A stretch of 64,000 nt of DNA, taken from positions 1 to 64,000 of the forward strand of contig JAIRPN010000015.1 in NCBI GenBank assembly GCA_031256975.1. The letters run 5' to 3'. Within the stretch, counting starts at the first letter, position 1. Each line of letters begins with the position of its first letter. This DNA comes from Verrucomicrobiales bacterium (GTDB taxonomy: Bacteria; Verrucomicrobiota; Verrucomicrobiia; Methylacidiphilales; JAAUTS01). Under the pieces are notes generated by a model. It had not been told where the DNA came from. It made no database searches and saw only the letters and a list, made by a program, of their open reading frames with translations. Made by a program: the position numbers and the translations under genes. This document shows, piece after piece, positions 4,189-64,000 of the stretch.

Positions 4189-4385
4189 AAAACAAGGTTA
4201 TCGTGACCTGAGTATTCGCGTTAGCGAGTAGTCAGAGAGTAGTATCGGATTAGTGACAGAATAGTACCGCACTAGCACCAAAACTTACCGCGCTACTGGC
4301 AATTTTACTGGCAAATCGACCAGAAAACGCCTTTTTCGGCGGAGTATTTGAAAAATGATCCTTGGGAATCAAGGACTTGTCAAAG
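4189..4385. other. Region between integrase and tRNA, likely attachment-site flank
   Basis: The 197 bp hold several repeats of a GTAGTA/AGTACC-like word (around 4230-4300) that could be arm-type recombinase sites, plus one TTAGCG copy at 4221. No gene is seen. The recombinase promoter must lie here on the reverse strand. Confidence 0.35.
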
Positions 4386-4460
4386 TGGCTCCGGAGGTAG
4401 GGCTCGAACCTACGACCAATCGGTTAACAGCCGACCGCTCTACCACTGAGCTACTCCGGA
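4386..4460 (-). tRNA. tRNA-Asn (anticodon GTT)
   Basis: The reverse strand folds into a full cloverleaf: acceptor stem TCCGGAG/CTCCGGA, D arm GCTC-AGTGGTA-GAGC, anticodon arm GTCGG-CTGTTAA-CCGAT with GTT, T arm GTAGG-TTCGAGC-CCTAC, and an encoded CCA at 4386-4388. The 3' end faces the integrase gene and is the likely attachment site of the island. Confidence 0.97.
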
Positions 4461-4533
4461 TGAGATAGTGGAACGTAAAGGAAACCACAGCCAACGATAA
4501 ATTTCAACCTGTTTTTATCGTTTGGGGCATTTT

Positions 4534-5151
4534 TTATATGCCGTCCAGCTCGTAGCTGCGCAGGGCCAGCCGCAAATCGACGTCGGGCCGCAGGTGGATG
4601 GTTTGCCAGCCCAGTTTGGAGGCGCCCATGATATTGGCTTCGAGGTCGTCCACGAACAGGCTCTCTTCCTTGACCCCGCCCATTTCCTCGAGGGCAATGC
4701 GGTAAATCTCGGCGTTGGGTTTCATGTGGCCCACCTGGTAGGAGTAGATGCGCTTTTGGAACAGGCCGAAGAAGTCGTAACGGGCTTCCAGGAAACGGAT
4801 GTGGGCGTCGGAGGTGTTGGAGATCATGCCCAAGGGGTAATGCTTCGCCAGGGAACGGACGTAATGGATGTTTTGTTCCAAGGGGGTGAAGACGTCGCAC
4901 CAGATGAGTTCCAATTCCCCGATGCTGCCGTCGAACTGGAATTGCTCCTTCATGGCGCTGAAGAATTGCGCGGTGTCGATGCGCCCGCTTTCGTAATCGT
5001 CGATCAGGGGGTATTCGGAGTAGGCCTTGCTTTTCAAATGCTCCAGGTCCAGCGGGGAACGCTGCGCCACGCGGTCAAAGGCGATGTTGAAATCGAAATC
5101 GACCAGCACCTTGCCGAGGTCGAAGAACAGCGTGGAGATTTTCATGGGCAC
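4534..5151 (-). CDS. HAD-superfamily hydrolase (subfamily IA)
   Basis: The 205-residue protein shows the four HAD motifs in order: FFDLGKVLVDFD near residue 9 (motif I, here D-L-G rather than D-x-D), SNTS about residue 113 (motif II), the lysine in HMKPNAEIY about residue 146, and FVDDLEANIMGA about residue 166 (motif III). This matches YihX-like small phosphatases that hydrolyse sugar phosphates or similar metabolites in the cytoplasm. The D-L-G form of motif I is common in that branch. It lies upstream of tRNA-Asn on the same strand. The natural substrate is unknown. Confidence 0.85.
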   Translation of the reverse strand: MPMKISTLFFDLGKVLVDFDFNIAFDRVAQRSPLDLEHLKSKAYSEYPLIDDYESGRIDTAQFFSAMKEQFQFDGSIGELELIWCDVFTPLEQNIHYVRSLAKHYPLGMISNTSDAHIRFLEARYDFFGLFQKRIYSYQVGHMKPNAEIYRIALEEMGGVKEESLFVDDLEANIMGASKLGWQTIHLRPDVDLRLALRSYELDGI

Positions 5152-5253
5152 ACTCTAGCGGCGATCGGTCTTTTGCCAAAGGCTAATTGCGCCCCCTGTT
5201 ATTCAACGGACCGGCACGGTTGCGCTTGCCAAAATCGCGGATTCCGCAAAAGT

Positions 5254-5904
5254 ATGTGCGTGGCGATGCTTCTCACTTTAACTCCGCACCGGGTTTCAAT
5301 TAATCCCAACCTGCTGGCCGGCAGCGCGGAGGAATTATTGTCGCACGCCGCCTCGCCGCAATCGCTGGCGGAATTCCTGAACTGGTCCTCGCCGCCGGAA
5401 ATCCTGACCGCCGGGTTCGCCCCGCAAAAGGACGCCAAGAAATTGTTGCTGCTGATGCGGGAAAACAAGCTGCGCAAGCAATTGAAGGCCAAGCGTGTCG
5501 CCAAGGGCTACGCCGATTTCATCCAGCCGCGCAAGGGCTTCAAGGGCTGGTGGCAGAAAAAGTTCAATGACCCGAAGGAGCTGCAACTGGCCTGCGGCTA
5601 CCAAGTGCTGGATTTCCTGCGCGAGTCGCCGCGGCTGCAATTGCTGGCGGCCCTGCACGACACCCTGCTGGCCTATGTCTCGGGCGCCGAACCCCGGCGG
5701 GTGGAGTTGTCGGAAATCTACACCAACATCAACCCGCTGGCGTCGATGGTGGCCAACGACGATCTCGCCGCCGCCGACCGCCTGGTGGTGAAAGCCCTGT
5801 CGGCGCCCCTGTCCAAGGTGTCACCCGCCTTTATCATCGAGAACCTGCACGGCCACGTGTTCGACTACGACCAGAAACGCAGTTTCGCGCATTACTTCGC
5901 CTGA
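5254..5904 (+). CDS. Conserved-looking cytoplasmic protein of unknown function
   Basis: A 216-residue frame starts at ATG 5254, with a second ATG at 5266. It is rich in charged residues and helix formers, with a basic block KKLLLLMRENKLRKQLKAKR around residues 71-90 and the segment KGFKGWWQKKFNDPKEL. No signal peptide or membrane segment is seen and I recognise no domain. A longer open frame extends upstream, but it lies over the divergent HAD gene and is not credible. The 3' end overlaps the convergent META lipoprotein gene by 13 bp. It is real by codon pattern; function is unknown. Confidence 0.6.
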   Translation: MCVAMLLTLTPHRVSINPNLLAGSAEELLSHAASPQSLAEFLNWSSPPEILTAGFAPQKDAKKLLLLMRENKLRKQLKAKRVAKGYADFIQPRKGFKGWWQKKFNDPKELQLACGYQVLDFLRESPRLQLLAALHDTLLAYVSGAEPRRVELSEIYTNINPLASMVANDDLAAADRLVVKALSAPLSKVSPAFIIENLHGHVFDYDQKRSFAHYFA

Positions 5905-6359
5905 GTTGACTTGACGTCGGGCAAAAACTCCAAGCGCAGGGAGCCGTCGCCGGTCAACACCAGCCGGTCCTTTTCCAGGCTCGCGTGGCGAACCTGCCGC
6001 AAGGCGGTGAGATAACGCACCTCGCGTTCCATCGCCGGTTGCGGCCCCATCATCATGGTGGTGGCAAAGCCGGAGCTCAGGTCCAGCGCGCCGTCCGCGG
6101 TGAATTTCGCCTGCCCCATGTAGCGGTTCACGCTGGCATTGCCGCCGACGCGGTTTTCCTCGCTGACCGCGAACGTGATCGCGCCGACCTCCTGGGTGGC
6201 GCCCGCCGCGTCGACCCAGCGGTCCAGCTTCCAGGATTTGCCCGCCAGTTGCGCGAAGGTTTCCTTGGCGGTGGTTTTTGATTCCGCTCCCGGGCCGCAA
6301 CCGGCCAGCATGAAAATTCCGGACAACCCAACCAGCAGCATTGTTTTGATCGTGTTCAT
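5892..6359 (-). CDS. META-domain (HslJ-like) lipoprotein
   Basis: The 155-residue protein begins with a lipoprotein signal, MLAGC at about residues 17-21, so the mature protein should be lipid-anchored in the envelope. The rest fits a META/HslJ domain: LAGKSWKLDRWVDAAG, ITFAVSEENRVGGNASVNRY (the family's GGxxGCNxY-like region) and FATTMMMGP. META proteins such as HslJ are linked to envelope stress but have no settled biochemical role. It is convergent with the gene at 5254 and overlaps its end. Confidence 0.8.
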   Translation of the reverse strand: MNTIKTMLLVGLSGIFMLAGCGPGAESKTTAKETFAQLAGKSWKLDRWVDAAGATQEVGAITFAVSEENRVGGNASVNRYMGQAKFTADGALDLSSGFATTMMMGPQPAMEREVRYLTALRQVRHASLEKDRLVLTGDGSLRLEFLPDVKSTQAK

Positions 6360-6469
6360 GTCCCATGTTTAGCAGCCCCGCGCAATTCGGCAATGCCGCG
6401 ATGACCAAATGCCTTCACGCGGCATGTTGCGACTTGAAATACCGCAGGATTCCGCGACAATGATGCTTT

Positions 6470-6697
6470 ATGGGCGAAAAAGAAAATTCGCGGAAGGAAG
6501 CGGCGGCGAAAATCATTGCCGCGCCGAACAAGTTCAAGGTGTGTGAAAGCTGCGGCTCGATCGTGATGAAAAAGGCCGACGTCTGCCCGAATTGCAATGC
6601 CTACCGCTTTGACGAGTCGCCGGAAACCGTGGTCGCCCAGGCTGAAATCCTCGCCGCGCGGGCGCCGCTGTCGATCGAGCACGAGGATTACAATTAA
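6470..6697 (+). CDS. Small zinc-ribbon protein
   Basis: The 75-residue protein has two CxxC knuckles, CESC at about residue 25 and CPNC at about residue 39, separated by 14 residues, which is a rubredoxin-like zinc ribbon. The N-terminus is basic and the C-terminus acidic. Proteins of this size with a single ribbon usually act as adaptors or nucleic-acid binders, but no specific role can be named. It lies 25 bp before mqnD on the same strand, with one TTAGCG copy in the gap (6706). Confidence 0.7.
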   Translation: MGEKENSRKEAAAKIIAAPNKFKVCESCGSIVMKKADVCPNCNAYRFDESPETVVAQAEILAARAPLSIEHEDYN

Positions 6698-6722
6698 GTT
6701 CACCCTTAGCGTTCCCTTTTAA

Positions 6723-7568
6723 ATGAAACAGAAAATCACCCTTGGTCACAGCCCCGATCCCGACGACGCCTTCATGTTCTACGCCATGGCGGAACACAAA
6801 ATCCCGCTCGGCGATTATGAATTCGAACACACTTTGCAGGACATCCAGACGCTGAACGAACGCGCGTTCCGCGAGGAACTGGACACCAGCGCGGTGTCGA
6901 TCCACGCCTACGCCTACCTGACGCAAAAGTACGCGCTGATGTCCTGCGGCGCGAGCATGGGGGACAATTACGGCCCGATGCTGGTGGCAAAGCAAAAGTT
7001 CTCCCGCGAGGAGCTGCTGAAGAAGAAAATCGCCATCCCCGGCAAACTGACCAGCGCGTTTCTGGCGCTGATGATCTACGCCGGAAAGAAGGAAAGCGAA
7101 CTGGATTATATCGTGGTGCCTTTCGACCAGATTTTCGACGCGGTGAAAGCCGGACAGGCGGAAGTCGGCCTGCTGATCCACGAAGGCCAGCTCACCTATA
7201 AACAGGAAGGCTTCGAACTCTGCGAGGATCTCGGCCAATGGTGGTTCCGGGAAACCAACGGCCTGCCCCTGCCGCTCGGCGGCAACGTGGTCAAGAAATC
7301 ACTCGGCCCCAAGGTGGTGCGCGAGGTCACCGACATCACCCGCGCCAGCATCCAATACGGACTCGCCAACCGCAAGGCCGGGGTCGACCATGCGCTGCCG
7401 CTCGGTCGCGGGCTCGACACCGCGATGGCGGACCAGTTCATCGGCATGTATGTCAACGACCTGACCATCGACTACGGCCAGCGCGGGCGTGACGGCATCC
7501 GGGAATTCCTCAAACGCGGCCACGCCATCGGCGCGCTGCCGGAACCCAGGGAAATTGAGTTCGTCTGA
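6723..7568 (+). CDS. mqnD: 1,4-dihydroxy-6-naphthoate synthase of the futalosine menaquinone pathway
   Basis: The 281-residue protein opens with LGHSPDPDDAFMFYAMAE, the hallmark of MqnD. It keeps the periplasmic-binding-protein fold typical of MqnA/MqnD (LDTSAVSIHAYAYL, IPGKLTSAFLALMIYAGK, GLLIHEGQLTY). MqnD converts cyclic dehypoxanthine futalosine to 1,4-dihydroxy-6-naphthoate on the alternative menaquinone route. Its presence implies futalosine-type quinone synthesis, with the other genes elsewhere. The gene holds no TTAGCG copy, unlike less conserved neighbours. Confidence 0.92.
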   Translation: MKQKITLGHSPDPDDAFMFYAMAEHKIPLGDYEFEHTLQDIQTLNERAFREELDTSAVSIHAYAYLTQKYALMSCGASMGDNYGPMLVAKQKFSREELLKKKIAIPGKLTSAFLALMIYAGKKESELDYIVVPFDQIFDAVKAGQAEVGLLIHEGQLTYKQEGFELCEDLGQWWFRETNGLPLPLGGNVVKKSLGPKVVREVTDITRASIQYGLANRKAGVDHALPLGRGLDTAMADQFIGMYVNDLTIDYGQRGRDGIREFLKRGHAIGALPEPREIEFV

Positions 7569-7574
7569 TCGTGC

Positions 7575-8108
7575 ATGAATCGCCTGTTTCGCGGCCTGCT
7601 GGCATTCCTGTTATTAGCATCGGCGACATACGCCGCCGATGACGCGTTTTTTGAAAAAACGCTGGAACAAATCAACCTCCAGCGCGCCAAGGCCAACCTG
7701 CAACCGGTGTCCCTGGACGAAAAACTGACCCGGATCGCCGGCGAATGGGCGGTCAAGAACGCGCAGGCCGACAACATGATGCATCGCAAGAACCTGAACT
7801 CGTTCATGGGCGATTTCAATTATTCCTACATCAACGAAAACCTGTTCTACGCCAAAAGCAGCACCGGTTCCCGACCAACGCCGGAACAGGTGGTCACCGC
7901 CTGGATGAACAGCACCGGCCACCGCCGCAACATGCTGAAAGACCGCATCGACCGCATCGGGCTCGGCATCGCCCAGGCCAGGGACGGCGGTTACTACGTG
8001 GTCTTCAACGGCGCCGACTCGCATCCGCCCAAGCAGGATGAAACACCCGCTAATGACCAGATTCAAAGTAGTGACGGCGTAAAATTCAACGGCATTCCAT
8101 TACGCTAA
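7575..8108 (+). CDS. Secreted CAP-domain (SCP/PR-1-like) protein
   Basis: The 177-residue protein has a signal peptide (LLAFLLLASATYAADD) followed by a CAP domain: INLQRAKANLQPVSLDEKL, AGEWAVKNAQADNMMHRKN, INENLFYA and WMNSTGHRRNML, with the histidine and glutamate positions of the CAP cavity. Bacterial CAP proteins are secreted and of mostly unknown function. It starts 6 bp after mqnD. Its last codons are CGC TAA within a CGCTAA motif, and a second copy follows at 8110. Confidence 0.85.
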   Translation: MNRLFRGLLAFLLLASATYAADDAFFEKTLEQINLQRAKANLQPVSLDEKLTRIAGEWAVKNAQADNMMHRKNLNSFMGDFNYSYINENLFYAKSSTGSRPTPEQVVTAWMNSTGHRRNMLKDRIDRIGLGIAQARDGGYYVVFNGADSHPPKQDETPANDQIQSSDGVKFNGIPLR

Positions 8109-8156
8109 CCGCTAAAAAGCTGTTGCCAAACCCTTGGCCCCGTCTTATATGACGGC

Positions 8157-8534
8157 ATGAAATTACTGCGCTCCCTGCACCTGTATCTTGGTTGCCTGTT
8201 CGCCCCCATGCTTTTATTTTTCGCTGTTAGCGGCATCTGGCAGGTGTTTCGCTGGAATGATCACCGTTCGGCGGAAGGTCCCTCCATCCTCGGCTACCTG
8301 TCCACCATCCACACCGGTTCCGCGTTTAAAAATCCCAACCTGCCTGTGCAAACCTTGTCCTCCGCCGCCATGCACTGGTTCGTGGTGCTGATGAGCGTGG
8401 TATTCATTTTTACCATCATCCTGGGCATCGTGATGGCCTGCAAGACAGGCCGCCGGAAAACCGCGCTGCTCTGCCTGCTGGCCGGGCTCGCGGTACCGAT
8501 AGGACTGGTTTTGTTCGCCGTAGCCAGCCATTAA
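8157..8534 (+). CDS. Membrane protein resembling the PepSY-associated TM family
   Basis: The 125-residue protein has three hydrophobic segments: residues 10-27 (YLGCLFAPMLLFFAVSGI), 75-97 and 103-122. The opening LRSLHLYLGC...FAVSGIWQVFRW resembles the first helix of PepSY-associated membrane proteins, which start with H-x-x-x-G and then a hydrophobic run ending in SG. The periplasmic part is far shorter than in that family, so this is a small relative or a lookalike. Function is unknown. Confidence 0.6.
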   Translation: MKLLRSLHLYLGCLFAPMLLFFAVSGIWQVFRWNDHRSAEGPSILGYLSTIHTGSAFKNPNLPVQTLSSAAMHWFVVLMSVVFIFTIILGIVMACKTGRRKTALLCLLAGLAVPIGLVLFAVASH

Positions 8535-8639
8535 CCGCGAAACAGCGGACAAAAATTCCCCTTCCCGACCGCTTGACTTGAAAAGCCAAGCTGATAGCCT
8601 TTACCGTTCCAATTGGAAAAATTGAACAAGGATTAATTT

Positions 8640-8888
8640 ATGCAACCTACATACAGACCTTCGACCCGTCGCCGGAAACGCAAGTTTGGTTTCCTGTCCC
8701 GCACCCGCACCAAGAACGGCCGCGCCACGCTGGCCCGCCGTCGCGCCAAGGGACGCAAGCGCTTGACGCCGAAAAAGACCGAGCGCAAGTTCGACCGTCA
8801 CAAGCAGCAACATTCGGTACCGAAGGTCAAGGCCAAGAAGCAAGTCGCCCGCAAGGCCAAAGCCAAGGCAGCCGCCAAGAAGAAATAA
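8640..8888 (+). CDS. rpmH: 50S ribosomal protein L34 with long lysine/alanine tail
   Basis: The N-terminal 45 residues are L34: [39 protein letters not shown]. The protein continues to 82 residues with a Lys/Ala/Arg-rich tail ([11 protein letters not shown]), whereas L34 is usually 44-50 residues. The tail is probably unstructured and RNA-binding. L34 lies near the exit side of the large subunit. Three bases separate it from rnpA, the conserved rpmH-rnpA order. No dnaA or oriC is seen upstream in the window. Confidence 0.95.
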
Positions 8889-8890
8889 GC

Positions 8891-9247
8891 ATGCCGGATT
8901 CCTCGCTGCCGCGGGTCAGGATTCTCCGTCACCGGAACGATTTTGACACGGTGCGGCAGCAGGGAAAACGTGTCGCCAGCCGTCATCTGGCACTGAATTT
9001 CCTCCGTCTGGCCGACACTGATCGCCGGGCGGGGTTCATCGTGCCAAAGGCTTGCGGCAACGCGGTACAGCGGAACAAGATCAAGCGCCGGTTGCGCGAG
9101 ATTTACCGCCACTATCAGCACCAGTTGGCCGGGGACTTGCAATCCGTCTGGATCGCCCGCAGGGGGTCGGCGGAAGTCGCCCAGGCGGATTTGAAACAAG
9201 AAATGCTGGCCTTGTATGCCAAGGCCGGGGTGGGAAAGGCAATATGA
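8891..9247 (+). CDS. rnpA: Ribonuclease P protein component
   Basis: The 118-residue protein has the RNase P protein pattern: an N-terminal ILRHRNDFDTVRQQGKR segment and the conserved arginine-rich RNA-binding helix NAVQRNKIKRRLREIYR at about residues 56-72. It assists the catalytic RNA in trimming tRNA 5' leaders. The stop codon overlaps the yidD start in an ATGA, so the two are likely translationally coupled. Confidence 0.95.
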   Translation: MPDSSLPRVRILRHRNDFDTVRQQGKRVASRHLALNFLRLADTDRRAGFIVPKACGNAVQRNKIKRRLREIYRHYQHQLAGDLQSVWIARRGSAEVAQADLKQEMLALYAKAGVGKAI

Positions 9248-9498
9248 AACAACTCCTGATTCTGGCCGTGAGATTCTATCAGGTGGCGCTTTCCCCGTTG
9301 AAACCTTTGATCGGCGGCAGCATGGGCTGTTGCCGCTACTCCCCCAGTTGCTCCACCTATGCCATCGAGGCCCTGCGCCGCCATGGCGCGTGGCGCGGCG
9401 GCATCATGGCCGCCCGGCGCATCCTGCGCTGTCATCCCTGGGGCTCGGCCGGTTACGATCCCGTACCGCCGCAATTAACCGTTCACCGGAAATTTTAA
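9244..9498 (+). CDS. yidD: Membrane protein insertion efficiency factor YidD
   Basis: From ATG 9244 the frame encodes 84 residues with the YidD signature: YQVALSPLKPLIGGSMGCCR, YSPSCSTYAIEALRRHGAWRG and the cysteine in ILRCHPWG. YidD is a small membrane-associated protein thought to help YidC insert proteins. The start is fixed by the ATGA overlap with rnpA; the frame runs open further upstream but that part lies over rnpA. yidC starts 2 bp after its stop. Confidence 0.93.
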   Translation: MKQLLILAVRFYQVALSPLKPLIGGSMGCCRYSPSCSTYAIEALRRHGAWRGGIMAARRILRCHPWGSAGYDPVPPQLTVHRKF

Positions 9499-9500
9499 TC

Positions 9501-11306
9501 ATGGATAAAACAGCAATCATCGTTATTAGCGTCTGCGTCGCGTTGTTCGGGGCCAACCTGTACTACGCCAACCAGAACCAAAAATCCCAGTTCGCCCGGC
9601 AGCAGGCCCAGGCGGCGCAACAGCAAGCCTCCGGCACTGCCGCAGCCCCGGCAGCGGCAGCCCAACCTGCCGCCAACAGCCAGCCCCTGACCCCGGCGCA
9701 ACCCGCCAACGAACAATTGTCCCCTGCCGCCGAGACGCTGGTTCCCGAAAGCAATCTCGCCCCGGAACAACTGGTCACGCTGGAAAACAATTTCTTCCGC
9801 GTCATCGCCACCACCCACGGCGGCGGCATCAAGCGGGTGGAGTTGAAGAAACACACCCTGAATGACGATCATCCAGTGATTTTGAACAATGGCGCGCAAT
9901 TGCCGGTGTTCAACATCCAGGGCTGGACTCCGAACGTCAATTTGATCGGCTACCAGATCGCCAACAGCGACGCCAACAGCGTCACCTTTACCCGCGAACT
10001 GCAGCCCGGCATCACGCTAACCCGCAAGTTCACCGTTAGCGGCGACTACAGCCTGACGCTGGAACAAACCGTCACCAATGGCACCGCGGAAATCAAGGTA
10101 TTGCCGCCTTACCGGTTGAACATCGGCGCGGTCACCGCCCTGCATCCGGAAAACGGCAGCGCCGAGGATCGTTATGTGACCTTGTCGTGGTACACCACCA
10201 ACGGCAGTTATGATTCCGGCCATCTCGCCCAGTTCAACGACACCAGCTTCGCCGGCATGAAATTCTGGTCGGGCAAAAAACTGATCGAAAGCAGCCAGGG
10301 CCAGGCCATCCGCTGGGCCTCGGTGAAGTCGCAGTTTTTCGCCTTGATCGTCGACTGCATCGGCTTTGACGCGCAGGGAGTCGAGGGCGCGCGCCAGTAT
10401 TTCCCCGACATCCGCACCGTCGCCAACACCGCGGTGCCGGCGGGCATCGTCGGCGACCTCGCCATTAGCGGCATCACGGTGAACCCGAACACCAGCACCG
10501 CGCAGAAATTCACCCTTTACGCCGGGCCGAAGGAAAATTCCCGCCTGCAGGCATTGCCCGACAATCAGGCCCGCGTCATGGAATTCGGCTGGTTCGGCAT
10601 CATCAGCCGCGCCCTGCTCTGGCTGATGAACAGCATCCACAGCTTTGTCCCCAACTACGGCGTCGCCGTCATCTTTGTCACCATCATCCTGCGCGCCATC
10701 CTCTGGTGGCCGCAATCCGCCGCCAACCGCAGCATGAAACGCATGCAGGCCGTGGCGCCGTTGATGAAGGAAATGCAGGAGAAGTACAAGGACAAGCCGG
10801 ACAAGCTCAACCAGGAAATGCTGAAAATCTACAAGGATTACGGCGTCAACCCGGTCGGCGGCTGCCTGCCGATGCTGATCCAGTTCCCGATCTTCATCGG
10901 GTTCTACTGGATGCTGCAAAGCTCCATCGAACTGCGCCACGAGCATTTCCTGTGGATCAAGGACTTGTCGCAGCCCGACACCGTGCTGCGCATCCCGTTC
11001 GGCGGCAATTTCTCGTTCCCGCTGAACCCGATGCCGCTGATCATGACCCTGACCATGTACATCAGCATGCGCATCACCCCGCAACCGCAGGGCGTCGACA
11101 ACCCGATGATGAAGATGATGCGCTTCATGCCGCTGTTCTTCCTGATCTTCTGCTACAACTTCAGCTCGGCCCTGTCTCTTTACTGGACGGCGCAAAATAT
11201 TCTCTCCATTATTCAAATGCGGTATAATCTGAAACAGGTTGCCCCCACGCTCGAGGCGATGAAAGCCCAGGCGCAGGCCCGCAAGAAGAAACAGTTGAAA
11301 CGCTGA
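9501..11306 (+). CDS. yidC: Membrane protein insertase YidC
   Basis: From ATG 9501 (MDKTAIIVISVCVALFG) the protein has 601 residues. It shows an N-terminal anchor, a Gln/Ala/Pro-rich linker (residues 30-75), the large periplasmic domain (to about 360) and the conserved C-terminal insertase core with five helices (SFVPNYGVAVIFVTIILRAI, KYKDKPDKLNQEM, NPVGGCLPMLIQFPIFIGFY). A basic tail ends the protein. YidC inserts and folds inner-membrane proteins alone or with SecYEG. The linker and long periplasmic domain are typical of diderm bacteria. It is the fourth gene of the rpmH operon. Confidence 0.95.
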   Translation: MDKTAIIVISVCVALFGANLYYANQNQKSQFARQQAQAAQQQASGTAAAPAAAAQPAANSQPLTPAQPANEQLSPAAETLVPESNLAPEQLVTLENNFFRVIATTHGGGIKRVELKKHTLNDDHPVILNNGAQLPVFNIQGWTPNVNLIGYQIANSDANSVTFTRELQPGITLTRKFTVSGDYSLTLEQTVTNGTAEIKVLPPYRLNIGAVTALHPENGSAEDRYVTLSWYTTNGSYDSGHLAQFNDTSFAGMKFWSGKKLIESSQGQAIRWASVKSQFFALIVDCIGFDAQGVEGARQYFPDIRTVANTAVPAGIVGDLAISGITVNPNTSTAQKFTLYAGPKENSRLQALPDNQARVMEFGWFGIISRALLWLMNSIHSFVPNYGVAVIFVTIILRAILWWPQSAANRSMKRMQAVAPLMKEMQEKYKDKPDKLNQEMLKIYKDYGVNPVGGCLPMLIQFPIFIGFYWMLQSSIELRHEHFLWIKDLSQPDTVLRIPFGGNFSFPLNPMPLIMTLTMYISMRITPQPQGVDNPMMKMMRFMPLFFLIFCYNFSSALSLYWTAQNILSIIQMRYNLKQVAPTLEAMKAQAQARKKKQLKR

Positions 11307-11331
11307 TAACGAAACGGTTGGAACAAGATAT

Positions 11332-11793
11332 ATGGCGTCGGGTTATTCACCAAAGGAAACGCTGGAGTTGATTCTCGGCCACCTCGGCTTCGTGTTCGAG
11401 GTGCGCGAGGAACAGCGCCCGACCGGCCCGACCCTGCATATCCTGACCGGCGACTCCGCCCGCCTGATCGGCAAGAACGGCAAGACGCTGGAGGATTTGC
11501 AATACTTGCTCAACCGCATCATTTCCAACGACGAGGACGAGTTGCACCGCATCACCATCGACGTGGAAAACTACCGCCAAAGCCAGCACGTCAACCTGCT
11601 GAAAAAAGTCGCCGAGAAGGCCGAACTGGTCAAAACCACCGGCGAGGAAGTGGTGCTGCCGCCGATGAATTCCTTTGACCGCCGACTGGTGCACAACCTG
11701 TTCGCCAGCGACCCGCTGATCATGAGCGTCAGCGAAAACACCGACGCCCGTCTCAAGAGCATCACGCTCAAGCTCCGTCCCGCCGCGGAATAA
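11332..11793 (+). CDS. khpB: KH/R3H RNA-binding protein (KhpB/Jag type, no Jag-N domain)
   Basis: The 153-residue protein has a KH domain with the GxxG loop in ARLIGKNGKTLEDL (about residues 42-55) and an R3H domain with MNSFDRRLVHNLFAS (about residues 110-124). This is the core of Jag/KhpB, an RNA-binding protein tied to cell division and envelope regulation. The N-terminal Jag-N domain of Gram-positive versions is absent. Its place after yidC is the usual one. The palindromic repeat at 11796 begins right after the stop codon. Confidence 0.9.
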   Translation: MASGYSPKETLELILGHLGFVFEVREEQRPTGPTLHILTGDSARLIGKNGKTLEDLQYLLNRIISNDEDELHRITIDVENYRQSQHVNLLKKVAEKAELVKTTGEEVVLPPMNSFDRRLVHNLFASDPLIMSVSENTDARLKSITLKLRPAAE

Positions 11794-11795
11794 CG

Positions 11796-11923
11796 AATTT
11801 ATTCACCGCAGAGGCGCAGAGAACGCTGAGAAAATACAACCTTTGGATTGAAATACTGCTAACTCGCAAACGCGAACCGGATAAAAATCTCCGCGTTCTC
11901 TGCGCCTCTGCGGTGAATAAATT
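11796..11923. repeat. Long extragenic palindrome, family A, copy 1
   Basis: Perfect 31-bp inverted repeats at 11796-11826 and 11893-11923, whose arms carry the word TTCACCGCAGAGGCGCAGAG, enclose a 66-nt centre. Two related copies lie at 28430 and 30913, and the centres of copies 1 and 3 also look alike (a TGCT..CGCGAA stretch). The form is that of a REP/MITE-like non-coding element. It fills the gap between khpB and ndk and could also act as a transcription barrier. Confidence 0.85.
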
Positions 11924-11972
11924 CTGCTCTTGCCTTCAGGAACCGGCCCTCTAGGCTTCGTAAGCTAAATTT

Positions 11973-12392: not shown

Positions 12393-12412
12393 GCCAAGCC
12401 TGAATTTCATCT

Positions 12413-55941: not shown

Positions 55942-56004
55942 GCCTCGTCCGTTTGTCATACAAAGTTAGACAAACTGGTGATTTTCAATTCATCAAATCA
56001 CCGC

Positions 56005-56679: not shown

Positions 56680-57191
56680 CCGCGCGGTTGATCGACAAGG
56701 ATTTGCGACAGGCTGTCATTGGTGATGAAACCCCGCTGCATATCAATCCCGCATCGAATTTTATCGAGCTGGCGGAGCCGGTTTGCAGCGAAGGCGACAG
56801 CCTGTTCTTCTTCACCAACAACGCTGAAAACGGCAAGAGCGACCTTTGCGCGGTGGGTTATTACGTGGTTTCCCCGGAAGGCAAGCCGCGCGAACTGCAC
56901 CGCTATTTCAAGAACAGCGACGCCACCTGGCAAACCGCCGACGCCAAATGCGGCATCCTGCCGCACGCACTCAACCCGGCCAAACCGCTCTTCACCCCGG
57001 TTGCCGAGGCAACGGAAAACGAAGTGCTGCTCAGCCACGTCCAATCCTTCCGCATCCGCGCCTTGCGCGCCGATACCACCGCTCCCGACGGCTGGCCGCC
57101 GCGGGAAAAACCGGCGCTGCTGGAAATCGTTCTCGACCTGGTGGAATCCGGCCTTACCCAGGAATTCAAGGTCCGCGTCCCGTACCAATAA
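56514..57191 (+). CDS. Pseudopilin-like protein resembling Verru_Chthon cassette protein C
   Basis: The 225-residue protein starts with TGFTLAETLAATAALALFAF, a prepilin peptidase site (G|F, E+5) at about residues 8-14. A beta-rich body follows (FIELAEPVCSEGDSLFFFTN, DLCAVGYYVVSPEGKPRELHRYF, ENEVLLSHVQSFRIRAL). It has the size and pattern of the C member of the Verru_Chthon cassette. It may join a type II-like pseudopilus. Its stop TAA is followed by C and lies at the start of the A-type gene. Confidence 0.78.
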   Translation: MPSKCSRTGFTLAETLAATAALALFAFITGTCIQLVSHSTSSLPHKLVSFHNARMTARLIDKDLRQAVIGDETPLHINPASNFIELAEPVCSEGDSLFFFTNNAENGKSDLCAVGYYVVSPEGKPRELHRYFKNSDATWQTADAKCGILPHALNPAKPLFTPVAEATENEVLLSHVQSFRIRALRADTTAPDGWPPREKPALLEIVLDLVESGLTQEFKVRVPYQ

Positions 57192-59745
57192 CCCGCGCGG
57201 TTTCGCCCTCATCCTCGTATTGGCGCTGATCACCACGCTGGCGGCGCTGGTTATTGGCGTGCTGACCCTTGTTCCGGTGGAATCGCGCACCGCCGCCCTG
57301 CACAATGACAAAATCCGCGCGGATTGGGCTGCCCGCGCCGCGCTCAATCACGCCATCGCGCAACTGACAGCGGTAATTTCCAACCCCGCTAACGGCGAAG
57401 CCGACCTGACCTTCATCACTTGGCAATTGGCGGCACCCGCGCAGTCCGGCAGCTTGTCGCCCATTTTGGTCATTAGCGACAATTCCACCATTCACCCATT
57501 GATTTCAACGTTGAACCATTCCATCAACACCAACGATCAACCTGCCCTCGATGCGCTGTTTCAGGAACGCCATGACAAAGACCTGAACCAGAACGGCCTG
57601 ATTCAAACCGGCAACGATGCCCTGAAATTTAACGTCAAATTGCTGGAGCTATCCGACAACTCCGGCACCACGGTGGCACGTTACGGTTATCAAATTCTCG
57701 ACGAACAAGCGCGTCTCGACCCGCACCTGCATCGTTCTGCAATGCGGGAACATTACGGCCTGAGCGCGTCGGAAATTTGTTTGTCCGGCACCCGCAACCA
57801 GCCTCTCACCAAGGAGGAACTCGCCAAACTGCTTTCCTTCCCGCCATTGCCGGCCACACCGCTCGCTTTCGCCCAAGCGCTATCAAACCGTCAACGACGG
57901 GAACAAATCAAACATTGGTTCGGCCTGCACACCGCTAACGACGAGGACCTGATTCCCGCCGGACTTCCTGACGCGGGTAAACCCAAGTACAATCTTAACG
58001 ATCTCGCCACCGATCCAAACCTGACCCCGCAGCAACGCGCGGAGAACATCGCCGAAATCATCGACCGCAATCTGCCGCTTTTCAAAACCCGGGACCCGAG
58101 CCTGCTCAAAGAATCGGCGGCAACCCAACGCCGTTATCTCAACCGGCTTGCCGCATCCATCGTCGATTATATCGACCCCGAAAGTTGCTGCACCGCCGCT
58201 AACGACGGCGAACCTGCGGGTCGCGGTTTATTCCCGATGGTTGTTAACGTCGCCGAGCAATATCTCTGGACTGGCGGCGATTCTTGCCACGCCAATATTC
58301 AAACCAAAACTTACGTACAGGTTTGGAACCCATACACGTTCGCCGTTAGCGGCCGGGCACGCATCAAACTGGCCAACCGCCAACGTGTCAATTTTGGCGC
58401 GGGAATCGTCCAACCTTTTGACGATTATTTTCCCGATGAGATCACCGTTAGCGTCCGGCCCAACGAATGCAAAGTCATCGCCTTCGCCCCGGTCACACAG
58501 ACCTTCAGCAGTCCCACTCCGGCGAACAAACCAAATTGGAACGGCTCTCCCGCCGATTCCGCCGACCAGACCACCCACCAGCCGTTTGAATTTTATTGGA
58601 ACGCTTGCCGCGCCGACATGAGCCGCCGCTTCCCGGTTGCGCCCGGCAACGCTAACAGCGGTATGGTACGCAACGCCAAGACACTCGAGTTGAACAAAGT
58701 CCATTACCAAGTTTGTTCCATTCCCACTTACAACAACGGCAATGTGGTCGGAGACCCGCGTGCCACTTATTTGAGCAATTACGACTGGGGTTCCGTCATT
58801 AGCGCCGATTCCGCCTACGCCGCCAGGACCTATTGGAACGGACGCAATCCGCGCGACGAGTTTCCCTTCAGCCAGGATTTCGTCAATACCTGGGCAGCCC
58901 GCGATTACATCCGTGCCAATCCGTCCGCCGGTAATGCGCCGGGAAAAATCAGCGTCGCGCCCGACGAAATTTCTTCCGCTTATGACGAAACCATGGACGC
59001 TAACAACGCGCCCTTCTCCATTCGCAAAGGCCAGATGGAATCCATCGGCGAACTCGGCAACATCTTCGATCCCGCGCAGGCCGCCAACGACGGCAGCGCG
59101 CCGAAAGGCGGCACCCCAGCCAGCGTATTTGTCAGCGGCGGCGGCAGAACCCTGCGCATCGGCCAACCGGAATTCGCTTACTGGGACCACGACGGCACAC
59201 GCGCCATCGAATTGCTGGATATTTTCACCGTCAATCCCGGCAGCAAAATGCGCGGCCGCATCAACATCAACACCGCGCCGAAGGAAGTGCTGGAAGCCTT
59301 GTTCGACAACATCGAAATCAAATCCGACATCGGTGCTTACGCCAGTGATGAAAATAAAATCAGCCGTCTCAACTCCTCACGGTTAGCGGATGCCGTGATC
59401 GCCGAACGGCAGAAATCACCATTCAAAAAACTGTCCGACTTATACCGCATCCTTCCGGCATTGAATCGCGCGGATGCCTACGAACCCAGACTCGGCGACG
59501 GCGCTAACAACGAAACCCCCAAGGTGATGGATCGGGCCCGCGAGGAAGCTTTCGCCAAATTCTGCAACCTGGTCGCCGTGCAATCGCGCAATTACCGCGT
59601 CTACGCCGTCGGCCAAGCCCTCGCGCCAAATGGCGCAGTCGCCGGAACAACTTATCTGGAAGCCATCGTCGCACTGGTTCCCGAACAGAACGCTAATGGC
59701 AAAACCATTTTCAAACCAAAATTCGTGCATGTTGAAACTCATTAA
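57187..59745 (+). CDS. Large prepilin-like protein resembling Verru_Chthon cassette protein A
   Basis: The frame carries a prepilin-type start, NNPRGFALILVLALITTLAA, followed by a body of about 820 residues: EARAA-like helix (KIRADWAARAALNHAIAQL), Asn/Asp/Ala-rich linkers, a YLWTGG.. centre and an ILxAL/NINTAPKEVLEALF helix-hairpin stretch near residue 700, the GspK-like end. No ATG, GTG or TTG lies before the prepilin motif in this frame after 56719. The nearest is TTG 57220, which would cut into it. The start given is therefore the start of similarity, not of translation. It is rich in CGCTAAC copies that encode Ala-Asn. Confidence 0.7.
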   Translation, partial: NNPRGFALILVLALITTLAALVIGVLTLVPVESRTAALHNDKIRADWAARAALNHAIAQLTAVISNPANGEADLTFITWQLAAPAQSGSLSPILVISDNSTIHPLISTLNHSINTNDQPALDALFQERHDKDLNQNGLIQTGNDALKFNVKLLELSDNSGTTVARYGYQILDEQARLDPHLHRSAMREHYGLSASEICLSGTRNQPLTKEELAKLLSFPPLPATPLAFAQALSNRQRREQIKHWFGLHTANDEDLIPAGLPDAGKPKYNLNDLATDPNLTPQQRAENIAEIIDRNLPLFKTRDPSLLKESAATQRRYLNRLAASIVDYIDPESCCTAANDGEPAGRGLFPMVVNVAEQYLWTGGDSCHANIQTKTYVQVWNPYTFAVSGRARIKLANRQRVNFGAGIVQPFDDYFPDEITVSVRPNECKVIAFAPVTQTFSSPTPANKPNWNGSPADSADQTTHQPFEFYWNACRADMSRRFPVAPGNANSGMVRNAKTLELNKVHYQVCSIPTYNNGNVVGDPRATYLSNYDWGSVISADSAYAARTYWNGRNPRDEFPFSQDFVNTWAARDYIRANPSAGNAPGKISVAPDEISSAYDETMDANNAPFSIRKGQMESIGELGNIFDPAQAANDGSAPKGGTPASVFVSGGGRTLRIGQPEFAYWDHDGTRAIELLDIFTVNPGSKMRGRININTAPKEVLEALFDNIEIKSDIGAYASDENKISRLNSSRLADAVIAERQKSPFKKLSDLYRILPALNRADAYEPRLGDGANNETPKVMDRAREEAFAKFCNLVAVQSRNYRVYAVGQALAPNGAVAGTTYLEAIVALVPEQNANGKTIFKPKFVHVETH

Positions 59746-60412
59746 TATCCTCGTTCTTTGCGGCATCTCGTCGTTAGCGTCGTTCGCACAGGAAGTGTAC
59801 TTGGTCAACGCCGCCAGTGTGCCAGAAATTTCCGTCAGCATTGACGGACAGCCCTTCTATCCTCATTTCCCCCAGGGTTTGTACACCGCCGGTTCCGCCA
59901 CTCACACGGAGAAAGTCGGCTACAAAATCCAGGCCCCGTTCAGCGGCGCCAACCGGACGCTAACGGCGAGCTTTGCCCCGCATTCCCGCCAGGCCGCGGT
60001 GATCTATGGTGATTTCTCGCCGTTGGCGGAGCCTCATTCCAAGCGCAAAACCAGCACGCCGAATGTCAAATTATTCCCCCTCGATTTCGCCTTGGCCAAA
60101 AATGAAGCTCGCTTGCGTTACCGCGTGGTGAATCTGCTGCCGGGACAAACCTTGCGCTTGGCGGTTGATTCCGGTCCGGTCGAAATTCCTTTCGAGCAAA
60201 GTTTCGCCATTAGCGGCCAGAAGCCGCTGGCGACGCTAACCGTGAGAATTGGCGAAACCGACATTCCCGTATTGATCCGCCAACGACGGGTATTACGGAA
60301 TTGCGATATCGTTTTCTACCCGGACGCCAATGGTGAAATCCGCTTCATCCGCTTCTTCGAACCGAATCCCGACGCTAACGACGAAACCGACGAATCGATT
60401 CCCGAGGAATAA
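59729..60412 (+). CDS. Secreted beta-rich protein following the pseudopilin cassette
   Basis: From ATG 59729, overlapping the A-type gene by 17 bp, the 227-residue protein has a signal peptide (LVLCGISSLASFAQ) and a beta-sandwich-like body (EVYLVNAASVPEISVSIDGQPF, RLRYRVVNLLPGQTLRLAVDSG, LATLTVRIGETDIPVLIRQR). It ends with an acidic tail DANDETDESIPEE. The overlap suggests that it belongs to the cassette operon. The middle resembles alginate-lyase-like or DUF4397-like beta proteins only loosely. Seven motif copies lie in 680 bp. Confidence 0.65.
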   Translation: MLKLINILVLCGISSLASFAQEVYLVNAASVPEISVSIDGQPFYPHFPQGLYTAGSATHTEKVGYKIQAPFSGANRTLTASFAPHSRQAAVIYGDFSPLAEPHSKRKTSTPNVKLFPLDFALAKNEARLRYRVVNLLPGQTLRLAVDSGPVEIPFEQSFAISGQKPLATLTVRIGETDIPVLIRQRRVLRNCDIVFYPDANGEIRFIRFFEPNPDANDETDESIPEE

Positions 60413-60456
60413 TTGCCATTTTACTTTGGCCCGTTCCCTGTTTAGATTGCCACTCC

Positions 60457-61248
60457 GTGAGCAACGATTCGAAACCCTTTCTCGAACATCTGGAGGACTT
60501 GCGCAAAATGCTGTTCAAGTCGATCCTCGCGCTGATCCTGTCGATGGGTCTGTGCCTGGTGTTCGTGAAGCAGATTTTGACGCTGCTGGAACATCCGCTG
60601 GCCAGGGCCGCCGATTTGAAAGGCATCAAGTTCAACGAAATGCTGATCGCCTACACGCCGATGTCCTCGCTCAACACACTGATGCAAACCGCATTGATGG
60701 GCGGTGTGATCGTAGCCCTGCCTTTCGTTTTATTTTTCATCGGCCAATTTATTCTCCCGGCGCTCACCGCACGTGAAAAACGTTTGTTGCTGCCGACTTT
60801 CGGCATCGGTGCGCTGTTGTTTCTCGGCGGCGTGGTGTTTTGCTATTTCCTGGTGTTGCCACAGACCCTGATTTACCTGATCGAACTGGGCGACTGGATC
60901 AATCTGCGTTTCAGTTGGGCCTTGGATGAATATCTGAGCTTCGTGGTGCAATTCCTGATCGCCTTTGGTTTGTCGTTCGAGTTGCCGCTGGTGATCGTGA
61001 TCCTTGCCAAGCTTGGTATTGTTTCCAAGGCCTTCCTCACCCGCTATCGCCGCCATTCGTTCCTGATCATCTTCGTGTTCGCCACCTGCATGATGCCGAC
61101 CACCGACTTGTTCTCGCTGATGGCCATGGCCGGGCCGATGTATCTGCTGTATGAAATCAGCATTTACTGCGTCGGCTGGATCGAAAAGGATCGCGCGCGC
61201 CGCGAGTCGCTGGATAATTGGGAAGACGATTATCCTGATAACTCCTGA
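60457..61248 (+). CDS. tatC: Sec-independent protein translocase TatC
   Basis: The 263-residue protein from GTG 60457 is TatC: FLEHLEDLRKMLFKSILAL at the N-terminus (the twin-arginine receptor face), six helices, and FGLSFELPLVIVILAKLGIV with the conserved F-x-x-E-x-P. It recognises twin-arginine signal peptides and, with TatA, moves folded proteins across the inner membrane. tatA/tatB are not in the window. The gene carries no motif copy; one follows its stop at 61249. Confidence 0.94.
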   Translation: MSNDSKPFLEHLEDLRKMLFKSILALILSMGLCLVFVKQILTLLEHPLARAADLKGIKFNEMLIAYTPMSSLNTLMQTALMGGVIVALPFVLFFIGQFILPALTAREKRLLLPTFGIGALLFLGGVVFCYFLVLPQTLIYLIELGDWINLRFSWALDEYLSFVVQFLIAFGLSFELPLVIVILAKLGIVSKAFLTRYRRHSFLIIFVFATCMMPTTDLFSLMAMAGPMYLLYEISIYCVGWIEKDRARRESLDNWEDDYPDNS

Positions 61249-61353
61249 CGCTAACGGCCAACTTTCAAACCGGCTGAACAGTCAAATCCGCTGAAATTTT
61301 CCGTCAATGGCGAAGATTGAACAATTCCGCTAACCACGCTATTATTTCCCCTC

Positions 61354-62712
61354 ATGCCTGCCTTTTTTATCAAGACCTACGGCTGCCAGATGAACGAGCG
61401 CGACTCCGAACAAGTCGCCACTCAGCTGCGCCAGCGCGGTTACACGGCCGCTAACAGCGAAGCCGAGGCCGATGTCGTGCTCTTGAATACCTGCTCGGTG
61501 CGCGACATGGCGGAGCAAAAGGCCATTGCCAAGATGCAAAACTTGCAAGGCCGCAAACGCAAGAATCCGGGCTTGGTCATCGGCTTCATGGGCTGCATGG
61601 CACAGAGCCGCGGCGGTGAATTGGCGACGCTAATACCGAAGGTCGACATGGTGGTCGGCACGCAGAAATACCACAAGGTGGCCGATTATATCGACCAATT
61701 GTTCGCCCGGCAGAACCCCGACATGGACAGCCTGCGCCAGCCGATTGTCGATACTGCGGAGGAAGCCGGTTCGCAAAACACGATCAAAGACCATGCGCTA
61801 ACGACAAGCCAAGTCACTGCCTTCGTCTCGATCATGCAGGGTTGCAACATGCACTGCACCTTCTGCATCGTCCCTTCCACCCGTGGCGCCGAACGCAGCC
61901 GGCCTATCAATGAAATCGTTGCCGAAGTTCGCAGCCTGGTCACCAAAGGCGTTAAGGAAGTCACCCTGCTCGGCCAAATCGTCAACCAATACGGCCGCCA
62001 CGAATTTCCCGCCGTTGACGGCAAAACACCGTTTACTCAACTGCTCTACGCGCTGGAAGAAATCGATGGCCTCGAACGCATCCGTTTCACTTCGCCTCAT
62101 CCGATCGGTTATAAAAAGGATTTGATCCAGGCTTTCCGCGAGTTGAAAAAACTCTGCGAACACATCCACCTGCCCTTGCAGTCCGGCAGCGACCGCATCC
62201 TCAAGGCCATGCACCGCACCTACACCGCGGACAAATACCGTCGCTTGGTCGATGAAATCCGCGCCGCCAGTCCCGGTATCGCCATCACCACCGACATCAT
62301 CGTCGGCTTTCCCGGCGAGACCGAGGAGGATTACCAGGCGACCCGCAAATTGGTCGAGGACGTGCGCTTCGACAATGCCTTCATCTTCCGCTACTCCGAG
62401 CGCCGCAATACTCCGGCCGCCGATTATCCGGACAAGGTTGCCGAGGAAATCAAGGACGCGCGCAACAAGGACTTGCTAGGAGTAATCGACGTCATCGCCG
62501 AGCAAAACGCCACGGACCTGATGGGCAAGACCGTCGAGATCCTGGTCGAAGGTCCCAGCAAGACCAAAGCCTCCCGCCTGATGGGCCGCACCCGCACCAA
62601 CAAATTGGTGATCTTCGAGGGCGACAACCGCCATCGAGGCCAGATCCTGCCGGTCAAAATCATCGACAACACCGCCTTCACCTTCTACGGCGACCCGGTC
62701 ATTCATTTATAA
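61354..62712 (+). CDS. miaB: tRNA-2-methylthio-N6-dimethylallyladenosine synthase MiaB
   Basis: The 452-residue protein has all three MiaB parts. The N-terminal UPF0004 domain has cysteines in KTYGCQMNE, NTCSVRDMAEQK and GFMGCMAQ. The radical-SAM core has CNMHCTFCIVPSTRG at about residue 164. The C-terminal TRAM domain is LVEGPSKTKASRLMGRT. It adds the 2-methylthio group to i6A37 of tRNAs reading U-starting codons. Length is normal. Motif copies occur at 61449, 61627 and 61796 in variable places. Confidence 0.95.
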   Translation: MPAFFIKTYGCQMNERDSEQVATQLRQRGYTAANSEAEADVVLLNTCSVRDMAEQKAIAKMQNLQGRKRKNPGLVIGFMGCMAQSRGGELATLIPKVDMVVGTQKYHKVADYIDQLFARQNPDMDSLRQPIVDTAEEAGSQNTIKDHALTTSQVTAFVSIMQGCNMHCTFCIVPSTRGAERSRPINEIVAEVRSLVTKGVKEVTLLGQIVNQYGRHEFPAVDGKTPFTQLLYALEEIDGLERIRFTSPHPIGYKKDLIQAFRELKKLCEHIHLPLQSGSDRILKAMHRTYTADKYRRLVDEIRAASPGIAITTDIIVGFPGETEEDYQATRKLVEDVRFDNAFIFRYSERRNTPAADYPDKVAEEIKDARNKDLLGVIDVIAEQNATDLMGKTVEILVEGPSKTKASRLMGRTRTNKLVIFEGDNRHRGQILPVKIIDNTAFTFYGDPVIHL

Positions 62713-62768
62713 AACCCGCTTGCCAGAATCCTGCGGTCAAGCCTATGCTTCCTCCATAAGCGGATATT

Positions 62769-64000
62769 ATGAGCCTCCGTATTTTTTTACCCCTATTCTT
62801 AATCGTTTTCTCCATCCCTTCCTCTTGGGCGCAGAGGTCATTTAATTATATCAAGCCTCTCGAGACTGCCCATTTAGTTGAGAGCAGCAAGCTATCCCTG
62901 TCAGACGAGGAAAAGGAAAAATTAGCCGTATTGCTGTGTACCGCAGCCAAGATTAGCGCAACCAATCTGAAATTTAATAAAAAAACCGACCCATTGCTAC
63001 CCAGCAAATGTGTCGCGCTGGCCCAGGATCTGGCATCGGATGCAAAATCCGTTATGGTCACCAATTATCAGCTTGGCCAGGGAGTTGTTCCCAATGTACC
63101 AGCTGATGCCTCTGCTGTGGAAAAAATCTCCAATAATCTCTACCAACAAGCCATCTCTCTTGTAACTAATGGCAATGCGGAAAATAAGACTTTGGCTTGC
63201 TATATATTCGAACTAGCGGCAGTGCTTAATCCGTTGAATGATGATGCCGTATATCAAATGACCAGTTCTGCACAAAATGGTTTTCATTCTGCGTGGCAAA
63301 TCAAGTTGGTGGATAATAATCCTAATTCCAAACCCGCTATTCCCGACAATCCCACAACAACGACAACTGACCCCTCGAAGGAGCGCAGTTCGATCAAAAT
63401 CCTGCTGGTAAACAGTCTGAATACCGGGCAGGAAATAGGCGCCACAAACAACTTGATCGGCGTACAGCAAAAAGCAGCCGCAACGAACATCAGCACCTCC
63501 TTTTCCGGAAGTGTTGGCACACAAATGAATATTGCAACTGAGGAAGCCACCCGACTCGCAAATGTCAAGCATCCCAATCTTTCGTCCGGTTGCTCCATAA
63601 AACTTAGTTTCGAGGATAAATACACCCCAAAAGACGGCGGTTCCTGCGGAACAGCAGTTGCCGTATTATTGTTATCTTTGGTGGACAATTTCGATATCGA
63701 CCAGACTGGAGTTATCACCGGCGACATTACCGTCGACGGATTGGTACAAAAAATCGGCGGGGTATTTGCCAAGACCGAAGGGGCCATTTCTTCCGGCGCA
63801 AAATTCATGGTGCTTCCTTCCCAAAACACAACGGATATCGATGACTATTTTGTCATGCATCCCGTCGGGGACGCATTAAAAATCCAGATTTTTTCCGCTG
63901 ATAACATCGACGATGCAACCGCGTTGATGAAAATACAAAAGAGCGACAATCTCGCCAAGGCGATGGAATTGTATTCAGCCCTTGTTTCTTCCCCGCAGGC
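62769..64000 (+). CDS. Secreted protein with Lon-type proteolytic domain, 3' end beyond window
   Basis: The frame opens at ATG 62769 and runs to the window edge (about 410 codons). It has a signal peptide (PLFLIVFSIPSSWAQ), a helical N-part, and a Lon-protease-like domain at about residues 265-385: TPKDGGSCGTAVAVLLL with the nucleophile Ser, TGDITVDGLVQKIGG and the Lys in VFAKTEGAISSG exactly 43 residues later, as in Lon (S679/K722 of E. coli). No AAA+ part precedes it. It may be an ATP-independent periplasmic Ser-Lys protease. Composition is more AT-rich than its neighbours. Confidence 0.78.
   Translation, partial: MSLRIFLPLFLIVFSIPSSWAQRSFNYIKPLETAHLVESSKLSLSDEEKEKLAVLLCTAAKISATNLKFNKKTDPLLPSKCVALAQDLASDAKSVMVTNYQLGQGVVPNVPADASAVEKISNNLYQQAISLVTNGNAENKTLACYIFELAAVLNPLNDDAVYQMTSSAQNGFHSAWQIKLVDNNPNSKPAIPDNPTTTTTDPSKERSSIKILLVNSLNTGQEIGATNNLIGVQQKAAATNISTSFSGSVGTQMNIATEEATRLANVKHPNLSSGCSIKLSFEDKYTPKDGGSCGTAVAVLLLSLVDNFDIDQTGVITGDITVDGLVQKIGGVFAKTEGAISSGAKFMVLPSQNTTDIDDYFVMHPVGDALKIQIFSADNIDDATALMKIQKSDNLAKAMELYSALVSSPQ

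Follow-up and report, generated by a model that had tools for sequence, protein, structure and literature searches.

Why does one short word, RTTAGCG (R being A or G), occur more than a hundred times in a single 64-kb stretch of DNA from a Verrucomicrobiales bacterium? In a preliminary description of this stretch (contig JAIRPN010000015.1, positions 1 to 64,000, hereafter the window) the word was proposed to mark DNA for uptake, as do the DNA uptake sequence (DUS) of Neisseria and the uptake signal sequence (USS) of Haemophilus. We are reporting here a computational analysis of the word in the window, in the genome from which it comes (own genome, G000; 2,757,365 bp in 19 contigs, 86.9% complete) and in related genomes. 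The word turned out to be the core of a longer one, which is likely to be a DNA uptake sequence system with dialects, putatively served by a pilin/PilT/ComEC/DprA route.

Abundance, extent and strand use of the word

In the window TTAGCG was counted 62 times on each strand, exactly the 124 copies that had been estimated by hand, versus 17.0 expected from an order-2 Markov model. The earlier figure of about 30 by chance is correct for base frequencies alone, but the guanine plus cytosine (GC) content on which it was based is 55.8% and not 58%. The seven-base RTTAGCG makes up 112 of the 124 (56 + 56), close to the approximately 120 announced for positions 4221..62956; this range misses the first site, which lies at 43, the second being at 4220 and the last TTAGCG beginning at 62953. 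On the genome scale 2128 + 2115 copies of RTTAGCG (4243) stand against 501 + 467 (968) of the reversed-pattern control, so that counts near expectation, which had been named as a ground for giving up the idea, were not found. An excess of many hundreds to thousands of copies is of the size known for words of the DUS/USS kind. Under an order-4 Markov model, as suggested beforehand, the excess is lowered in the first 460 kb sampled (GTTAGCG 354 vs 191.6 expected), such a model soaking up much of any 7-mer's own excess, and 8- to 10-mers remain far over expectation, e.g. CGCTAATGGC with 68 vs 3.9.

Building of the extended consensus, also recommended in the preliminary description, retained its seven bases as a real core but not as the full motif, which is a word of 12-14 bases, TCRYCRTTAGCGNC. 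At 650 TTAGCG sites of the 460 kb the information content spans from six bases 5' of TTAGCG to the second base 3' of it, and the consensus reads T C R Y C R TTAGCG N C, written below as TCRYCRTYAGCGNC. The 12-mer TCNYCRTYAGCG is present 1195 times in the own genome and 5 times as its reversed control; 91 of these copies are of a form with C in the core, and the remaining 1104 (~1,100) are of the T form.

For gene-level analysis we used a sample of 860,502 bp (31% of the own genome) with 606 genes from a simple purpose-made caller, and the null was provided by 60 randomizations in which synonymous codons were shuffled inside each gene, so that both codon use and protein are kept. The called genes contain 968 copies of RTTAGCG versus 166.3 (sd 11.0) in the shuffles, and 242 copies of the 12-mer versus 12.4; the motif is thus independent of codon use. 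On this comparison codon bias was rejected as the source of the word. Bias of codons, dinucleotides or mutation could be recognized in the shrinkage of the 7-mer excess under the order-4 model and in a mildly high reversed control GCGATTR (own genes 248 vs 212, z 2.7; relatives' genes 146 vs 106, z 4.6), yet it accounts neither for the difference from the shuffles nor for the density of RTTAGCG, 1.44 per kb, which is the same inside and outside called genes, and we give it practically no chance. The 968 coding sites are divided between sense (365 + 105) and antisense (289 + 209) frames; all four stop-free frames are occupied, in agreement with the earlier observation, and no coding RTTAGCG of the sample lies in either stop-containing frame.

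Balance between the strands, claimed for the window, holds for the whole genome as well, and by GC skew 604 sites of the sample fall on the G-rich and 599 on the C-rich strand (p = 0.91), i.e. there is no leading/lagging bias of the kind that had been named as contrary evidence. Local lopsidedness (asymmetry >0.4) was noticed in 6 of the 41 sampled stretches, one of them with a single site. These results bear on another possible role, that of a dispersed word recognized by a protein of chromosome maintenance or repair, similar to Chi, FtsK orienting polar sequences (KOPS) or highly iterated palindrome 1 (HIP1). Such words are likewise abundant genome-wide and lineage-specific, and the word described here is spread across most of the sampled genome. 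However, Chi and KOPS are strand-biased and HIP1 is palindromic, while our word is neither; Chi and KOPS were therefore rejected on strand balance, in accordance with the original argument. A length of 12-14 bases, inverted pairs at gene ends and dialects between sister species speak against a maintenance word too, and we consider this role improbable.

Two dialects within one genus

Comparison with related genomes, which had been proposed as a further check, revealed a counterpart of the word in all four further genomes assigned to the genus (G001-G004, forming two clades), where it appears with C in place of T. The C-form 12-mer TCNYCRTCAGCG is present 1618, 1376, 1839 and 1455 times in G001, G002, G003 and G004, respectively (controls 5, 4, 8 and 3), versus the 91 copies of the own genome, 21 and 17 in two other members of the family and not more than 100 in each of the remaining 53 genomes of the order. 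Samples of 37-67 kb per genome from G001-G004 have TCACCGTCAGCG-type words among the most over-represented; the dialect pair is TCGCCGTTAGCG in the own genome versus the TCACCGTCAGCG type in its relatives, with TCRYCRTCAGCGNC as the sister consensus. In the relatives' genes RTCAGCG is found 1316 times vs 385.4 in synonymous shuffles and its 12-mer 219 times vs 30.9, with RTTAGCG at 42 vs 66; in own genes the reversed control GCGACTR gave 124 vs 130. The distribution of the dialects agrees with the phylogeny.

Many sites are common by position and differ in one letter, since at alignable places (75-78% identity of the aligned stretches) the own RTTAGCG corresponds to RTCAGCG in 29 of 41, 21 of 44, 42 of 86 and 23 of 47 cases for the four relatives, and 71 distinct own sites of the aligned sample have RTCAGCG in at least one of them. 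Starting from 379 distinct places with RTCAGCG in relatives, the own genome has T at 71, C at 28 and neither at 280, therefore turnover of sites must be high. The ratio of own T to C varies weakly with the flank score, being 49:13 with good (4-5), 12:6 with intermediate (3) and 10:9 with poor (0-2) flanks (good vs poor, Fisher p = 0.038; the intermediate class did not enter this comparison). Eleven switched and three unswitched sites have a reading frame such that the C/T change replaces Asp by Asn. The dialects differ also at position -4, with 200 G and 107 A in the own genome (313 sites) versus 52 G and 381 A in relatives (442 sites); among 31 aligned sites, seven have own G and relative A, and none the reverse.

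As the dialect difference is C/T, it could be a by-product of methylation, in which a cytosine methylase acts on RTCAGCG and deamination turns it into RTTAGCG. It is favoured by C5 methylase matches at two places of the own genome, so that gene absence is no argument against it. It leaves, however, the abundant RTCAGCG words of four genomes unexplained; moreover, RTCAGCG of the own genome shows no depletion (473 vs 384 expected, z 5.4; 12-mer form 18 vs 19.3), position -4 differs as well and the T/C switch goes, weakly, with the flanks. We judge it very improbable.

Outside the genus the word was not met at comparable density. In 59 of 59 relatives from the order, a set comprising G001-G004 and two further family members, RTTAGCG is rarer than its reversed control, and the C dialect is enriched only in G001-G004, hence occurrence of the same motif elsewhere in the order was rejected. 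A phylum-wide motif was rejected too: in 386 other genomes drawn evenly from Verrucomicrobiota outside the genus and family, the combined pattern is at background, the largest raw count noticed being 180 in a 7.2-Mb genome. Among the best twelve named relatives from Verrucomicrobia and its subgroups (Methylacidiphilaceae, Chthoniobacterales and Opitutaceae among them), taken from the best 80 of 584 matches of a search with the window's glutamine synthetase, no locus reaches the density of the genus (the maximum being 2 C-form 12-mers in 17 kb), and a de novo word search in 20-80 kb of each of eight other relatives gave nothing resembling TCRYCRTTAGCGNC. The word is thus confined to one genus among the sampled genomes and therefore is no general feature of Verrucomicrobiota; the earlier claim of a lineage with its own motif is correct for this genus. 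It is likely that the uptake-code system is confined in the same way. Rooting of the dialect change by a ComEC tree gave a trichotomy at the base of the genus, so the direction of the change may only be inferred; C is the dialect of two clades and so the likelier ancestral form.

Other repeated words were noticed during these searches. A second over-represented word, AGCGCGTGAG / CTCACGCGCT, has 32 copies in G003 (67 kb, L031-L035; L numbers denote sampled stretches) and 8 in G004 (37 kb, L036-L040). Strongly repeated 10-mers, maybe local repeats, are ACTGACAACT, 9 times in 31 kb (G005, L071-L074), and ACTCCGGCCA, 14 times in 20 kb (G012, L087). In another Verrucomicrobia metagenome-assembled genome GATCGACA is present 25 times in 21 kb (L099:1-21030) vs 2.2 expected, possibly as a protein repeat or other abundant word.

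Motif-poor DNA and paired sites

Sites are not spread evenly: 28 of 171 five-kb bins hold 0-1 site, and motif-free runs of 8-17.5 kb were found in 6 of the 41 sampled stretches. Four of these six runs exceed the longest run (9.6 kb) of 200 uniform placements; those of 8.3 and 9.5 kb do not. Three 20-kb stretches, L012, L019 and L020, hold 1-2 sites each, and the scan of their called genes for mobile functions covered 6 of 10, 6 of 11 and 8 of 18 genes, respectively. The motif-free run of L012 includes ISL3 and IS66 transposases. That of L019 contains an efflux system, and a Tn7-like transposase stands immediately outside it. The run of L020 includes a TraG-like ATPase (25.7 bits, cut-off 25.8), and TrbI, a D12 DNA methylase and a CagX-like match (below cut-off) are beside it. 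The nearly motif-free L020:1-20000 (G000:C2:20001-40000) as a whole carries a conjugation-type cluster as well as genes for DNA methylases of the adenine and cytosine kinds.

In the window no RTTAGCG is present between 43 and 4220. Positions 1-4460 are of low GC, contain integrase and formate/nitrite transporter genes and end near tRNA-Asn (Table 1), and they are probably an integrated island. Sparseness in the island, as first described, is therefore confirmed, and the scarcity in mobile islands that characterizes DUS and USS was found in all the stretches examined for it (L012, L019 and L020, three of the six with long motif-free runs, and the integrase stretch of the window). The parallel claim of sparseness in very conserved genes fits the gap 16112-20350, over most of the ammonium transporter gene and the glutamine synthetase gene, but not the third window gap longer than 2 kb, 4220-8048, which has neither an island nor a conserved gene to explain it.

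Table 1. Positions of RTTAGCG sites, motif-free DNA, paired sites and selected genes in the window
Feature	Position	Strand	Remarks
RTTAGCG sites, n=112 (TTAGCG n=124)	43..62958	both, 56 each	pattern count
RTTAGCG-free stretch	50..4219		first 4 kb of window 45% GC; integrase gene inside; ends near tRNA-Asn
Phage_integrase-family protein, 357 amino acids	3115..4188	-	PF00589, 31.8 bits, cut-off 27.1
tRNA-Asn (GTT)	4386..4460	-	likely integration site
Full-length site TCACCGTTAGCGGC	10030..10043	+	aligned place in four same-genus genomes: TCACC(G/A)TCAGCG(G/A)C
Inverted RTTAGCG pair, intergenic, followed by TTTTTT	12415..12441		terminator-like; pair scan
Full-length site TCGTCGTTAGCGGC	13975..13988	-	4 of 4 same-genus genomes: TCATCGTCAGCGGC (A/G and C/T differences)
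RTTAGCG-free 4.2-kb stretch	16119..20349		spans most of ammonium transporter gene and glutamine synthetase gene
Inverted RTTAGCG pair, intergenic	20350..20383		no T run directly beside; pair scan
PilT/PilU-family pilus retraction ATPase	22236..23639	+	TIGR01420, 417.3 bits, cut-off 319.1; mechanical open reading frame, start not settled
Second PilT/PilU-family pilus retraction ATPase	23582..24715	+	TIGR01420, 414.8 bits, cut-off 319.1; mechanical open reading frame, start not settled

Some sites form inverted pairs, of which those with a spacing of 19 or 20 bases are over-represented in the own genome (n=17). Close inverted pairs (≤34 bases) are intergenic in 22 of 31 cases, and TTTT lies within 12 nucleotides in 11 of these 22, compared with 45 of 257 of all intergenic sites, thus the intergenic pairs of the own genome may act as terminator-like elements. 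Such use is suggested for the own genome only, because in relatives just 9 of 50 close pairs are intergenic. The over-represented 19-20 base spacing could also be read as the trace of a hairpin element, terminator or repetitive extragenic palindrome (REP)-like, spread by duplication. On the other side, a close pair starts at no more than 31 of the 1243 sampled sites, 986 of the 1243 start in called genes and the copies resemble each other over just about 6 bases 5' and 2 bases 3' of TTAGCG, so this origin appears extremely improbable. Independently, an intergenic inverted repeat of REP-like appearance, with many copies across the genome and the genus (scattered matches of a 19-kb query), was noticed at window positions 11795-11924.

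Competence genes and the proposed uptake system

A search for com genes and pilins, likewise called for at the start, gave ComEC, DprA and prepilins; ComEA was not found. A ComEC domain, PilB-type ATPases and prepilins are encoded in 5 of 5 genus genomes, DprA and PilT-type matches in 4 of 5 each. Contig 4 of the own genome contains two PilB/GspE-type ATPases (just under cut-off) and a PilC/GspF protein with RadC close by, and 25 prepilin-type matches were counted in the own genome. Comparison of 22 own prepilins with 57 of the relatives (pattern-picked, some being the same gene in overlapping loci) singled out no receptor among the matches listed, in which clear orthologues share 49-60% identity. 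Six own prepilins were scanned against Pfam and ten against NCBIfam, where two pass the Verru_Chthon cassette cut-off. The prepilin L224:8828-9535 (orthologues with 52-59% identity in 3 of 4 relatives) and the pair L221:6039-7302, which adjoins metabolic and not pilus assembly genes, are receptor leads only. Verru_Chthon cassette prepilin-like genes, among many prepilin clusters, are L010:8728-9363 and L214:4841-5485 (the two above cut-off) and, weakly, window 56719-59745.

Several observations weigh against an uptake system. The single family used to look for ComEA, HHH_3, did not reveal it: the above-cut-off matches lie in open reading frames of 376-803 amino acids, which are too long for ComEA and probably encode Tex. 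The own ComEC scores 98.8 with the NCBIfam ComEC/Rec2 model, below its cut-off of 190, and ComEC is present also in both motif-free family members, so competence genes do not track the motif. PilT-type matches are missing from G001 and DprA from G002, both about 78% complete. The motif-free run of L223 contains prepilin genes and nothing recognised as mobile. An off-motif control, although taken near the motif, shows the same shift at position -4 (own 19 G/12 A, relatives 8 G/36 A). To these have to be added the weak flank effect, the mildly high GCGATTR control, the slight excess of RTCAGCG kept by own genes and the mostly genic inverted pairs of the relatives.

Despite these points, the uptake interpretation, in favour of which the enrichment, strand balance, independence of codon use and avoidance of mobile-type DNA in the stretches examined all speak, is strengthened by the longer word, its confinement to one genus, the C-for-T dialect, the inverted pairs at gene ends and the set of competence and pilus genes. 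In most respects that can be tested on sequence the system appears to match DUS and USS, the exceptions being the letters of the word, ComEA and the inverted pairs of relatives. Similarly to DUS of Neisseriaceae, the word has about a thousand or more copies per 2-3 Mb genome, many of them in genes, and single-base dialects between related species (PMC3630211), and it is scarce in islands (PMC7371117); the inverted pairs of DUS are associated with terminators (PMC3630211), to which the terminator-like pairs of the own genome may correspond, and DUS pairs at terminators are described also in PMC13020248. It is not a neisserial DUS proper, GCCGTCTGAA (PMC13020248) with its CTG core (PMC13020248, PMC3630211), since TCRYCRTYAGCGNC has no CTG core in that orientation, belongs to another phylum and has a predicted uptake role and a putative receptor; the partial likeness CGTCnG of the two words is probably chance. 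With USS of Pasteurellaceae, tied to type IV pilus competence, it shares abundance, dispersal and two dialects which follow phylogeny (PMC12616744), differing from the USS word AAGTGCGGT (PMC13020248) of these gammaproteobacteria in its letters and in the lack of an AT-rich tail. Neisseriaceae and Pasteurellaceae are given in a 2025 paper as the only families known with uptake sequences (PMC12616744). In the literature as available we met no description of a word of this kind from Verrucomicrobiota, and the accessible part of PMC6777429 does not report such sequences in Verrucomicrobia. ComEC genes have been linked to recombination in abundant soil bacteria, Verrucomicrobia being among the phyla studied (PMC7305173).

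In the proposed mechanism, a minor pilin is predicted to bind TCRYCRTTAGCGNC on free DNA, PilT motors would pull the bound DNA in and ComEC would hand one strand to DprA for recombination. The word would accumulate as DNA carrying it gets taken up and recombined more often. A shift in what the receptor recognizes, after which sites were converted or turned over, would lie behind the dialect difference (C/T in the core and A/G at -4), and this difference would restrict DNA exchange between the species. We think it probable that this is a third self-DNA uptake code of separate evolutionary origin, belonging to a phylum distant from Proteobacteria, with a dialect split inside one genus and read by a diverged pilus receptor.

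If so, self-DNA tags, known until now from two proteobacterial families, would for the first time be seen beyond them, and the appearance of one in a third unrelated lineage would mean that uptake codes arise repeatedly. Two dialects in one genus would make a natural case of change in a genome-wide code, and their comparison could be used to seek the receptor. For these bacteria, in which natural transformation has so far been inferred from genomes, the word would provide a handle on the process.

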